From assembly GCF_002156705.1 (NCBI RefSeq), contig NZ_CP019893.1:2046001-2110000 (forward strand): a stretch of 64,000 nucleotides of DNA, in the 5' to 3' direction. The position numbers and the translations under genes were made by a program. The notes under the pieces are model-generated. The model saw only the letters and a list, made by a program, of their open reading frames with translations, did no database searches and had not been told where the DNA came from. Position 1 is the stretch's first letter. Each line of letters opens with the position of its first letter. This document shows positions 7,070 to 11,284 of this stretch, one piece after another. The DNA comes from Natrarchaeobaculum aegyptiacum (GTDB lineage: Archaea; Halobacteriota; Halobacteria; Halobacteriales; Natrialbaceae).

Positions 7070-8686
7070 ATGCACAAACCACTGCTCGTGACCGACTTTC
7101 TCGACCGGGCGCGACGGCACTACGCCGACGAGGAGGCGGTCGTTGCAACGACCGGGGAACGGTTTACCTACGCTGAACTTGGCGAGCGTGCCGATCGATT
7201 CTCGGCCGCCCTCGAGCAGCGAGGTATCGAGAAGGGCGACCGGGTCGCGGTGCTCGATCCGAACACTCACTACCACCTCGAGGCAGCCTACGGGATCATG
7301 CAGCTGGGGGCGATTCACGCGCCGCTTAACTATCGGCTAACCCCCGACGACTACGTCTATCTGCTCAACGATGCCGGCGTGAAGGCGATCTACGCAGACT
7401 ACGAGTATGCAGACAAGATCGAGGAAGTTCGTGATGAGGTCCCAACCGAGACGTTCATCACGAACGATCCCGACGCCGTTTCCGGCGACTGGGAAGATTT
7501 CGAGGAGGTGCTGGCCGACAGCGACCCCGACGCGTACGAGCGCCCCGAGATGAGCGAAGACGAGATCATCACGATCAATTACACCTCGGGGACGACGGGT
7601 GACCCGAAAGGCGTCTGTCGAACGCACCGAACCGAGGCGCTCCACGCTCAACTCGTGACGATCCACCACGAGATCAGCGACGACGACGTCTACCTCTGGA
7701 CGTTGCCGATGTTCCACGTCAACGGCTGGGGCCACATCTACGCGATCACCGGTATGGGTGCCAAACACGTCTGTACCCGCGGTGTCGACGTCGAGCAGAT
7801 TTACGGGGCGATCAACGAGGAAGACGTCTCGTTCCTCTGCTGTGCGCCGACAGTCCTCAGCATGCTCGGTGATTACCGCGACGAAAACGACGTCTCCACG
7901 ACGGGCGACAACCCGATGCGCGTCACTGCCGCGGGTGCCGCCCCGCCGGAAGCCGTCATCCAGATGGTCGAGGAGGACTTCGGCTGGCACTTCCGCCAGC
8001 TCTACGGCGCGACCGAAACCGGTCCACTCATCAGCACTTCGGCGACCCGTCGCCTGATCGACGAGGATAGTCAGGACCGGTTCTCGCTCAAGAAACGCCA
8101 GGGCATCTCGCCGCTGGCAACCGAGGTCGACGTCGTCGACGAGGAGGGCAACTCCGTTCCGTGGGACGACGAGACGATCGGCGAAATCGTCGTCCGCGGC
8201 AACCAGGTCATGGACAGCTACTGGGAGAAACCCGACGAAACCGAGGAGGCCTTCAGCGGCCGCCGCGACGGCTGGTACCACACCGGTGACCTCGCCGTCG
8301 TCAACGAGGTCGGCATGGTCTCCATCCAGGACCGCGATAAGGACATCATCATCTCCGGCGGGGAGAACATCTCGAGCATCGAACTCGAGGACACGCTGTT
8401 CGAGCACGAGGCGGTCTCGGAGGTGGCGGTCATTCCGGCCCCGAGCGAGGAGTGGGGGGAGACGCCGAAGGCCTTCATCGTGCCCCAGAACGGTGATCCG
8501 GACGAGCCGGGCGTGACGGTCGACGAACTCGTCGAGTTCTCCCGAGAGAACCTCGCGAACTACAAGACTGTCAGACGAATCGAGTTCGTCGACGAGTTAC
8601 CGACGACGGCGACCGGCAAGGTCCAGAAGTTCGAACTCCGCGAGGAAGAGTGGGAAGACGAAGACCAGATGGTTGGGCAGGGCTGA
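7070..8686 (+). CDS. AMP-forming acyl-CoA synthetase (copy 1)
   Basis: The 538-residue protein is a member of the ANL superfamily (acyl-CoA synthetase/AMP-binding), which activates a carboxylic acid to an acyl-AMP and then a CoA thioester. Visible motifs are the P-loop-like YTSGTTGDPKG near residue 173, the LYGATETGP motif near 313, a TGD motif near 403, the hinge region and the C-terminal catalytic lysine in PTTATGKVQK. The length fits medium or long-chain ligases. The substrate cannot be read from sequence. It is transcribed with atpB but from its own promoter, and it is a paralogue of the next gene. Confidence 0.9.
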   Translation: MHKPLLVTDFLDRARRHYADEEAVVATTGERFTYAELGERADRFSAALEQRGIEKGDRVAVLDPNTHYHLEAAYGIMQLGAIHAPLNYRLTPDDYVYLLNDAGVKAIYADYEYADKIEEVRDEVPTETFITNDPDAVSGDWEDFEEVLADSDPDAYERPEMSEDEIITINYTSGTTGDPKGVCRTHRTEALHAQLVTIHHEISDDDVYLWTLPMFHVNGWGHIYAITGMGAKHVCTRGVDVEQIYGAINEEDVSFLCCAPTVLSMLGDYRDENDVSTTGDNPMRVTAAGAAPPEAVIQMVEEDFGWHFRQLYGATETGPLISTSATRRLIDEDSQDRFSLKKRQGISPLATEVDVVDEEGNSVPWDDETIGEIVVRGNQVMDSYWEKPDETEEAFSGRRDGWYHTGDLAVVNEVGMVSIQDRDKDIIISGGENISSIELEDTLFEHEAVSEVAVIPAPSEEWGETPKAFIVPQNGDPDEPGVTVDELVEFSRENLANYKTVRRIEFVDELPTTATGKVQKFELREEEWEDEDQMVGQG

Positions 8687-9052: not shown

Positions 9053-9100
9053 GTGGTAATCGAAATGAACTTACCTCTCGTTGGCGCTACGGTGATACAT

Positions 9101-10714
9101 ATGCACAAGTCACTGCTCGTGACCGACTTTCTCGACCGGGCGCGGAGACACTACGCCGACGAGGAAGCGATCGTCGCGACGACCGGTGAACGATACACGT
9201 ACGAAGAGTTCGGTGACCGAGCCGACCGTTTCTCTGCAGCGTTACAGAAGCGTGGTATCGAGAAGGGCGACCGGGTCGCGGTGCTCGATCCGAACACCCA
9301 CTACCACCTCGAGGCGGCGTACGGATCGATGCAACTCGGGGCGATTCACACGCCGCTGAACTATCGGTTGACGTCGGACGACTTCGCGTACATTCTCGAG
9401 GATGCGGGGGTCGATGCGATTTACGCCGATTACGAGTACGCCGGGAAGATCGAAGCGGTTCGCGACGACGTGCCGACGGAGACGTTCATCACGAACGACG
9501 TCGACGAGGTCGACGGTGACTGGGAGGCGTTCGACGACGTGCTCGAGGAGGCGGGTACGGAGTACGAGCGCCCGGAGATGGCCGAAGACGACATTATTAC
9601 GATCAACTACACCTCGGGGACGACGGGTGACCCGAAAGGCGTCTGTCGAACGCACCGCGCCGAGACGATCCACGCCTACAGCACGAGCGTCCATCAGGAG
9701 ATCAGCGACGACGACGTCTACCTCTGGACGTTGCCGATGTTCCACGTCAACGGCTGGGGCCACATCTACGCGATCACCGGCATGGGGGCCAAGCACGTCT
9801 GCACTCGCGGCGTCGACGCCGCTGGCATCTTCGAGGCGGTCCGAACCGAGGACGTCTCGTACATGTGTGGCGCTCCCACGGTGTTGAACATGCTGATCGA
9901 CTACTACGAGGAGAACGACCCCGAGACCACCGGCACGAACGACGTTCGGATCGCGACTGCAGGAAGCGCGCCGCCGGAAGCGACCATCCGAACGGTCGAA
10001 GACGAGTTCGGGTGGTACCTCAAACACGTCTACGGTGCGACCGAGACTGGCCCGCTCATTACGACCTCAGACGCCCGTCGGCACTTCGACGACGACAGTC
10101 GCGACCGGTTCGCGATCAAGAAACGACAGGGGCTCTCGTTCCTCGGCACCGAGGTCCGCGTCGTCGACGAGGACGGCAACGACGTCCCGCGGGACAACTC
10201 GACGATCGGCGAGATCGTCGTCCGCGGCAACTCGGTCATGGAGAAGTACTGGAACAAACCGGAAGAGACCGAGGAGGCCTTCTCCGACCGGATCGAGGGC
10301 TACTACCACATGGGAGACCTCGCCGTCGTCGACGAGAACGGCATGATCTCCATTCAGGACCGCAAGAAAGACATCATCATTTCCGGCGGCGAGAACATCT
10401 CGAGCATCGAACTCGAGGACACGCTGTTCGAGCACGAGGCGGTCTCGGAGGTGGCGGTCATTCCGGCCCCGAGCGAGGAGTGGGGGGAGACGCCGAAGGC
10501 CTTCATCGTGCCCCAGAACGGCGATCCGGACGATCCGGGCGTGACGGTCGACGAACTCGTCGACTTCACCCGCGACAACCTCGCGAGCTACAAGGCGGTC
10601 AAGCGCGTCGAGTTCGTCGACGAGTTGCCGACGACGGCGACCGGCAAGGTCCAGAAGTACGAACTCCGCGAGGAAGAGTGGGAAGACGAAGACCAGATGG
10701 TCGGCCAGGGCTAG
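9101..10714 (+). CDS. AMP-forming acyl-CoA synthetase (copy 2)
   Basis: The 537-residue protein is a paralogue of the gene at 7070, with the same MHK-x-LLVTDFLDRAR start, which decides the start at 9101 rather than the upstream in-frame GTG at 9053. It keeps the YTSGTTGDPKG nucleotide motif, the YGATETGP motif and the PTTATGKVQK lysine. The C-terminal domain is almost identical to copy 1, with a 131-nt stretch without a single difference, while mid-protein segments have diverged (for example around residues 190-210 and 250-275). Such patchy identity suggests recent duplication followed by gene conversion, possibly with diverging substrate range. Confidence 0.9.
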   Translation: MHKSLLVTDFLDRARRHYADEEAIVATTGERYTYEEFGDRADRFSAALQKRGIEKGDRVAVLDPNTHYHLEAAYGSMQLGAIHTPLNYRLTSDDFAYILEDAGVDAIYADYEYAGKIEAVRDDVPTETFITNDVDEVDGDWEAFDDVLEEAGTEYERPEMAEDDIITINYTSGTTGDPKGVCRTHRAETIHAYSTSVHQEISDDDVYLWTLPMFHVNGWGHIYAITGMGAKHVCTRGVDAAGIFEAVRTEDVSYMCGAPTVLNMLIDYYEENDPETTGTNDVRIATAGSAPPEATIRTVEDEFGWYLKHVYGATETGPLITTSDARRHFDDDSRDRFAIKKRQGLSFLGTEVRVVDEDGNDVPRDNSTIGEIVVRGNSVMEKYWNKPEETEEAFSDRIEGYYHMGDLAVVDENGMISIQDRKKDIIISGGENISSIELEDTLFEHEAVSEVAVIPAPSEEWGETPKAFIVPQNGDPDDPGVTVDELVDFTRDNLASYKAVKRVEFVDELPTTATGKVQKYELREEEWEDEDQMVGQG

Positions 10715-10933
10715 CCGGTCGCTGCCACGTTTACCAGCGCGCCAGTCGGCCGGGAGCGTGCCACCGCGCGAACTGCGTGGTGGCGTGTGACCCAGCAGAA
10801 GAGCACGCTCTTCCGAGCATCCGAACACTCCTGTCCTTCCTGTGGCTTCACGGCGGACAGAGACTGGAACGCGACCTACAACATCTTGGTGCGCGGACTG
10901 AAGCAAGTAGGGACGGGCTGTCCCGAATCAACG

Positions 10934-10993
10934 TCCTCAGAATCGCACAGCGATTCTGATGGGCTGTGAAAATCGCTCAGCGATTTTCGAACG
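10934..10993. repeat. Paired-hairpin block 1 (60 nt)
   Basis: There are two perfect stems with 3-nt loops: 10937-10959 (10 bp, loop ACA) and 10968-10988 (9 bp, loop TCA), separated by a spacer containing GGGCTGT. The block is in frame with the tnpB text on both sides and brings in the TGA stop. Confidence 0.75.
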
Positions 10994-11046
10994 CCTGCGG
11001 AGACTGCGCTCCCTGCGGGGACCGATTCGGTTCCTGCAAAGCGCGT

Positions 11047-11092
11047 TCGTGAGATAACATCTCACGGGCTGTCAGACGTAGTCTGACAACGT
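11047..11092. repeat. Paired-hairpin block 2 (46 nt)
   Basis: There are two perfect 8-bp stems with 3-nt loops: 11048-11066 (loop AAC) and 11070-11088 (loop GTA). The junction again reads GGGCTGT (11066-11072). The 46-nt length shifts the tnpB frame by one base. Confidence 0.75.
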
Positions 11093-11111
11093 CGTGGAAA
11101 CAGGAAGCCCC

Positions 11112-11171
11112 ATCTGCTCACGGGCGCAAAGCGTCCGTTCGCGTGGTCCGTGAGACCTTCGGTCTCACGCT
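11112..11171. repeat. Paired-hairpin block 3 (60 nt)
   Basis: There are two stems with 3-nt loops: 11120-11138 (8 bp including one G-T pair, loop AAA) and 11149-11169 (9 bp, loop TTC). The block adds an in-frame TGA. The junction sequence resembles, but does not equal, the GGGCTGT of blocks 1 and 2. Confidence 0.65.
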
Positions 11172-11284
11172 ACCCTCGAGGAGCGAGCGGCGCAAGCCGT
11201 GAGCGAGTAGGGTGGGGAGGAAGTCACTGTTGCTTTCTCAACATGGCACGTGGATTGATCAAATCGATCTTGAGAGAATACTGG

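Follow-up and report, generated by a model that had tools for sequence, protein, structure and literature searches.

CGTC-tagged REPs have been described from five bacterial phyla, with no archaeal member, and have no transposase of their own (PMC3733652). Two of the Rickettsia palindromic elements (RPE), RPE-4 and RPE-6, are CGTC-tagged as well (PMC10969869, PMC3733652). In the haloarchaeon Haloquadratum walsbyi the small element SMR-A is known, with an unknown mobiliser (PMC3119063). The double hairpins of Allomyces mitochondria have been described, and no flanking duplications were reported for them (PMC2800124).

These systems were compared with three blocks of paired hairpins in the tail of a tnpB gene of Natrarchaeobaculum aegyptiacum. 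The blocks lie in a stretch of 64,000 nucleotides, called the window throughout. They are probably separate insertions of small (~45-60 nt), non-autonomous double-hairpin elements into the tnpB tail.

The tnpB remnant and its three blocks

The original prediction, made from the letters of the window, described six stems with 3-nt loops, grouped as three pairs of 60, 46 and 60 nt, that cut the 3' end of a tnpB. Six hairpins, all with 3-nt loops, were located in the tnpB tail in just this grouping, and the lengths are exact when the locus is set against a paralog in the same genome. This paralog, at 3350309-3350546, is 97% identical (segments 96-100%) and lacks exactly 60, 46 and 60 nt. The features are listed below.

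10824..11227, + strand: 3' remnant of an IS605/IS1341-type tnpB with its right end; segments 96-100% identical to the intact paralog, and a TNB zinc-ribbon match
10824-10929, 10990-11043, 11090-11111 and 11172-11210: coding text of the remnant, with the stop codon TAG at 11208-11210
Up to 11227: right-end stem and terminal GTCAC, placed by the common ...GTCAC/TTCAC and the divergence beyond it
10930..10989, + strand: block 1, type A double hairpin, 60 nt (CGTCC tag, TCAGAATCGC hairpin, linker TGGGCTGT, GAAAATCGC hairpin, AACG); exactly missing in the paralog, same element and site in other species, covariation
10937..10959, + strand: block 1 hairpin 1, 10 bp, loop ACA
10968..10988, + strand: block 1 hairpin 2, 9 bp, loop TCA
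11044..11089, + strand: block 2, type B double hairpin, 46 nt (CGTT tag, two 8-bp triloop hairpins flanking GGC, AACG end; CGT ambiguous); exactly missing in the paralog
11048..11066, + strand: block 2 hairpin 1, 8 bp, loop AAC
11070..11088, + strand: block 2 hairpin 2, 8 bp, loop GTA
11112..11171, + strand: block 3, type C double hairpin, 60 nt (TCTGCTC, ACGGGCGC hairpin, linker TCGCGTGGTC, CGTGAGACC hairpin, CTA); exactly missing in the paralog, family found with covariance model R1
11120..11138, + strand: block 3 hairpin 1, imperfect stem of 8 positions, loop AAA
11149..11169, + strand: block 3 hairpin 2, 9 bp, loop TTC

The paralog encodes an intact TnpB of 409 aa with the C-terminal end ...CPESTPAETALPTGTDSVPAKRVVETGSPTLKKRAAQAVSE. 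The frame that had been predicted to open once the blocks are removed (CPEST-PAETALP ... AKRV-VETGSP ... GSP-TL..RAAQAVSE) is the real tail of this protein. The claim that the blocks cut a tnpB 3' end holds in part: they do lie inside a tnpB tail, but the gene is itself a 3' remnant already. Homology in the window starts at 10824 and only positions 39-60 of the TNB zinc-ribbon profile are matched; what the blocks interrupt is therefore not an otherwise whole gene.

Set against the empty-site paralog, the limits of blocks 1, 2 and 3 are ambiguous by 4, 3 and 1 nt, and block 1 can equally be read as 10934-10993 (AACG is repeated). The junction GGGCTGT is common to blocks 1 and 2, as had been noticed; that of block 3 differs (TCGCGTGGTC). 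The window and 20 stretches of the same genome were scanned for two adjacent perfect hairpins with 3-4 nt loops, which gave 24 pairs, and 0 in a shuffled control. Two of these are blocks 1 and 2, while block 3, with its imperfect first stem, lies outside the scan's definition. The same scan found no perfect pairs in eight unselected 20-kb stretches of the genome, and no perfect paired triloop hairpins of like strength elsewhere in the 64 kb or in its shuffled control. An exact-pattern search for GGGCTGT and AAAATCG returned the window plus one chance match.

Several other repeats and genes were seen around this locus. A different repeated hairpin family (GTGTGACCCAGCAGAAGAGCACGCTCTTCCGAGCATC) is represented by a fragment at positions 10780-10826, immediately upstream of the remnant. 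It recurs in the genome near 2301981, 2243292 and 3916072, and its full copies (L028 1968-2012, L031) resemble one more paired hairpin. Positions 7070-8686 and 9053-10714 are tandem paralogous genes that by eye resemble AMP-forming acyl-CoA ligases (538 and 553 aa) and are highly similar to each other over their whole length. At 3351794-3351917 of the genome (L181/L186), two different pairs stand back to back in a left-end hot spot of the insert-free-tail paralog.

Filled and empty sites across haloarchaea

The comparison set consisted of 80 TnpB loci from named genomes and local paralogs. Across these loci the three block positions are empty or filled independently of one another: none is filled in L019, only C in L076 and L067, only A in L087, only B in L102 and L022, A and C in L058, A and B in L098, and all three in the window. 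Block 2 stands alone at 2928008 of the window's own genome and in Natronorubrum (L102), in the latter with other stem sequences. The block-1 nucleotide (GAATCAACG/CC, the slash marking the point) takes at least three element types that differ in linker and second hairpin, the linkers being TGGGCTG in type A, TGTGCG in type G and TGATCA in type D. The block-3 site is occupied by types C and H, and the Halorubrum locus L171 has the linker TAGCA there. In L088 and L062 one pair is nested in another.

The three blocks are insertions. The reading of the blocks as mobile palindromes, one of those offered in the original prediction, is supported by empty sites that are exact, both within this genome and across many species, by blocks that are present or absent independently, and by different types at one site. 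Similar pairs also occur at other sites; their absence had been named as a refutation, and the same pair types were found elsewhere. Of the checks proposed with the prediction, a comparison of tnpB genes at the same codons found both states, with and without blocks, across species, and the search for empty sites and target duplications found clean empty sites but no fixed duplication. In 63 comparisons of filled and empty sites (overlapping loci contribute the same site in some of them) the repeats range from 0 to 6 nt and are mostly CG.

A tnpB tree of 94 rows was built with the insert columns left out, and the block-1 site was scored in 93 of them. The site changes 15 times on this tree (shuffled mean 17.6), with 9 changes forced by strongly supported branches, giving at least 9 gains or losses, a count in which gain and precise loss are not told apart. 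The site is empty in 75 of the 93 rows, and the filled copies are mostly isolated tips carrying different element types. Recombination among tnpB copies may spread an insert at one site without a new insertion.

The position of the pairs within the IS605-type units is uneven. Left ends hold 24 pairs and tails or right ends 13, altogether 37 in 59 kb of the 80 loci, with 0 in 84 kb of main tnpB coding sequence, 8 in 336 kb outside, and 0 in shuffled sequence. Pairs near tnpA appear to be located in IS left ends. Three hot spots lie in the left-end palindrome (AAGGAG/CAACG, GTAGCG/CAGTAGGG and ATACAGCG/CCG), and the others are the window's three positions and a few inside tnpB. Insertion points are mostly directly 3' of CG. 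Most clean cases show a repeat of 0-2 nt at the joins: CG, or CA in L171, and none for type D. Longer repeats occur only where target and element end are alike by chance, as with AACG at the block-1 site. In the window's genome, 8 of 11 distinct matches to covariance model R2 lie within or adjoin a tnpB. D-like pairs (linker TGATGA or similar) were also seen in the loop of the right-end stem (ggggtc...gacccc) of L018, L024, L029 and L032.

Each of the 18 inserts measured at the block-1 site has a length divisible by 3 (54, 57 or 60 nt), and most are translated; among left-end copies, lengths of 53, 55 and 56 nt occur as well. Around codon 373, a minority of the 80 TnpB loci have 19-20 extra residues, each of them a double hairpin. 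An annotated full-length TnpB of 429 aa from Halorussus halophilus, WP_158059630.1, has ...SESTSSESQSDSDGLRKSHSDFRTPVE... at the window's block-1 codon. Intact proteins with the blocks as coding text had been given as evidence that would overturn the prediction, and the Halorussus protein is one in a sense, but such coding blocks are still insertions because most close homologs are without them at the same codon. The exception to the in-frame pattern is block 2 (46 nt), which always shifts the frame, close to the protein end. Most block 3 copies hold a stop codon. Separately, L032 (2574625-2576025 of the window's genome) has an open tnpB frame of 467 codons with two translated in-frame pairs, an antisense TGGCA-linker pair near the start and a G-type pair near the end, and this frame stops inside a type C element.

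Stems are mostly 8-10 bp long (mode 9), loops have 3 nt in 85 of 92 cases, and no CCA-like tail was seen in the element alignments. CGT[C/T] stands at both outer ends in 46 of 88 distinct non-C pairs (~1% expected), and a further 19 carry a CGT[CT] tag at one end (background 10% per end); type C, the window's block 3, is without it. The tag is partly formed by the target CG, becoming CA in L171 and perhaps CT in L094, which means that the ends of the elements are not entirely fixed. Types A and G have 9 base pairs with changes on both sides. Their covariation score was matched by 0 of 500 shuffles and that of type C by 1 of 500, relatedness not being corrected for in either. The stems are shown to be base-paired under selection. 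Rfam gave no family match at the blocks or the scanned tnpB tails.

Hairpin modules were observed in different combinations in L023, L061, L136, L141, L162 and L010, as if single hairpins were exchanged between pairs: TCAGAA with AAAATC, ACGAGA or CACAAGAG; CACAAGAG with ACGAGA; and CGTCAGAC with AAAATC. L033 has a four-hairpin array starting with type C twice (1172-1278 and 1470-1576), 298 nt apart.

Covariance models were used to follow the elements through the class. The types A+G model, counted at E<=1e-4, matched 166 of 194 Halobacteria genomes and 61 of 65 genera, with 1-26 copies per positive genome. The type C model R1 matched all 61 genomes and all 28 genera of the window's taxonomic family, with up to 51 copies. 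In a draw of 148 genomes from the phylum, all 21 genomes with matches belong to the window's order. When the blocks were searched against plasmids, the matches were haloarchaeal except for short chance ones at E ~4 to 5, and the first half of the Haloquadratum plasmid PL100 has no such pairs. Many standalone type C copies lie within a larger intergenic repeat (cctccccaaccgattcgctcgctcatcc; L064, L065, L070, L072, L075, L085), which is common in the window's family of haloarchaea.

Proposed movement of the elements and rival explanations

Two families of elements are proposed. Types A and B, with the related G, D and H, would each consist of two different REP-like hairpins, inverted and with CGTC/CGTT outer tags, and would be haloarchaeal CGTC-tagged REP dimers; type C, which lacks the CGTC tag, would form a second family built in the same way. 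Insertion is precise, mostly after CG, with a target repeat of 0-2 nt, at recurrent positions in the structured IS605/IS1341 ends and the tnpB tail. In coding sequence mainly in-frame inserts persist, read as ~20 extra residues.

The elements may move in the form of single-stranded hairpins, with IS200/IS605 elements supplying a Y1 (HUH) transposase in trans, a suggestion that we put forward tentatively. The near-absent target repeats, the precise empty sites, the hairpins themselves and the company of IS605 elements fit Y1 hairpin chemistry, and archaea have only the IS200-type subclass (PMC6006769). Y1_Tnp was found in 18 of 19 R2-rich genomes versus 9 of 20 without matches, a correlation confounded by the number of IS605 elements because TnpB counts rise too. 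One rich genome (G071) has 9 copies and no detected Y1 gene. For both reasons Y1 movement is something that we can only infer, and no mobiliser has been linked to the elements.

Survival at few places is probably due to selection, with elements persisting where extra hairpins are harmless: hairpins would be accepted in loops, whether at the ends or in the guide-RNA tail, and multiples of 3 at coding sites. Haloarchaeal guide RNAs lie at the 3' end of tnpB, and by this known position the tail in the window would encode one (PMC12558985). The two sotRNA/guide-RNA families named in PMC12558985 gave no match to these tnpB tails, so we infer the exact guide RNA limits here. The suggestion in the original prediction that the guide-RNA region tolerates the blocks fits their position.

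The blocks might instead be ancestral parts of the guide-RNA region that vary through loss and gene conversion, with no insertion at all. The three positions are common to paralogs of the window's genome (866736, 2811312) and to many genera, and the block-free paralog is the closest in sequence to the window's copy, which fits precise loss there. Such an origin is nevertheless quite unlikely, given the dominance of empty sites on the tnpB tree, where most filled sites stand at isolated tips and differ in element type, and the occurrence of the same elements in left ends, outside tnpB and nested in one another. It is also unlikely that the blocks are miniature IS200/IS605 derivatives, in which a left-end and a right-end hairpin have fused into a minimal PATE moved by its own TnpA. 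Two hairpins, almost no target duplication, a size near the 52-bp terminal-only PATEs of Haloquadratum (PMC3119063), the company of IS605 ends and the Y1 correlation would all agree with this, but by eye the hairpins are unlike the palindromes that the IS elements of these loci carry at their left and right ends, their stems vary freely while linkers and ends stay, and there is no TTCAC-type end.

The original prediction had also raised processed segments, that is, introns or other excised RNA removed from the transcript so that the gene still works. Removal of the blocks restores the frame, block 2 shifts it and a stop codon interrupts most block 3 copies, all of which fits this reading. However, inserts at the block-1 site keep the frame and are mostly open and translated, which splicing would not require and which makes introns unnecessary. 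Elements also occur in left ends upstream of tnpB, and in a study of haloarchaea no bulge-helix-bulge motif was found at circular guide RNAs (PMC12558985). Excision from RNA is very improbable. MITEs were considered and rejected: long terminal inverted repeats are absent, and the filled and empty pairs show no constant duplication.

Separate insertion of non-autonomous double hairpins is the reading preferred here. It can be widened to a class-wide superfamily of modular double-hairpin elements that parasitises TnpB transposons, a picture that is possible if rather doubtful. Its modules would be reshuffled by recombination and would settle in fixed loops, both in the ends and in the tail that encodes the guide RNA. 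TnpB and its guide RNA would be altered in this way, and the RNA-guided nuclease possibly silenced or retuned. Movement would be by single-strand hairpin chemistry in trans.

TnpB elements are the ancestors of Cas12. The hot spots lie in the ends and in the tail coding for the guide RNA, and they amount to natural experiments in how far the guide RNA and TnpB tolerate added structure; the dozens of exact empty and filled sites allow the insertion chemistry to be worked out. Double-hairpin inserts would also explain the odd insertions of 19-20 residues in annotated TnpB proteins.

Comparison with described elements

No description of 45-60 nt haloarchaeal pairs was found in the literature, a search in which subscription journals were mostly not covered. 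The original prediction knew of no described haloarchaeal element with this layout, but precedents exist for the layout in bacterial CGTC-tagged REP dimers and for the targeting in Haloquadratum SMR-A.

Like SMR-A (PMC3119063), the pairs described here are haloarchaeal, free of transposase and of target duplication, and inserted into near-terminal palindromes of IS605-type transposons. By its description SMR-A is ~110 bp long, has prominent terminal inverted repeats and is known from one species (PMC3119063), whereas here double hairpins of 45-60 nt occur class-wide, also in tnpB coding sequence, and their ends share only CGT[CT]/[AG]ACG tags. The PATEs of Haloquadratum are also haloarchaeal palindrome elements, down to 52 bp, but PATE ends are IS605 ends and the block hairpins are not (PMC3119063). 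Rickettsia palindromic elements likewise lie in frame within protein genes; they were first described at ~150 bp, from many unrelated genes of one bacterial genus (PMC10969869, PMC3733652), while the haloarchaeal coding inserts are found in one gene family and its element ends. The Allomyces double hairpins and the sponge RHEs (PMC2800124) are paired, show evidence of mobility and occur in genes and spacers, but they are mitochondrial, have other sequences and have no link to transposon ends.

The non-C pairs have a strong likeness to the head-to-head dimers of CGTC-tagged REPs (PMC3733652). Both have inverted hairpins of 8-10 bp with CGTC/CGTT/TGTC outer ends, are often heterodimers, form dispersed multicopy families, also occur inside genes as 20-30 residues, and have no transposase of their own. 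The bacterial repeats differ in their loops of 4-5 nt and their CCA tail (PMC3733652), the haloarchaeal pairs in their 3-nt loops, in linkers such as GGGCTG, TGTGCG and TGATCA, and in a strong focus on IS605/TnpB. The tags are partly target CG and the loop and tail features differ, so the pairs are placed beside the CGTC-tagged REPs by likeness and not filed as members. With these pairs, tagged hairpin repeats, so far reported from bacteria, extend to nearly all haloarchaeal genera.
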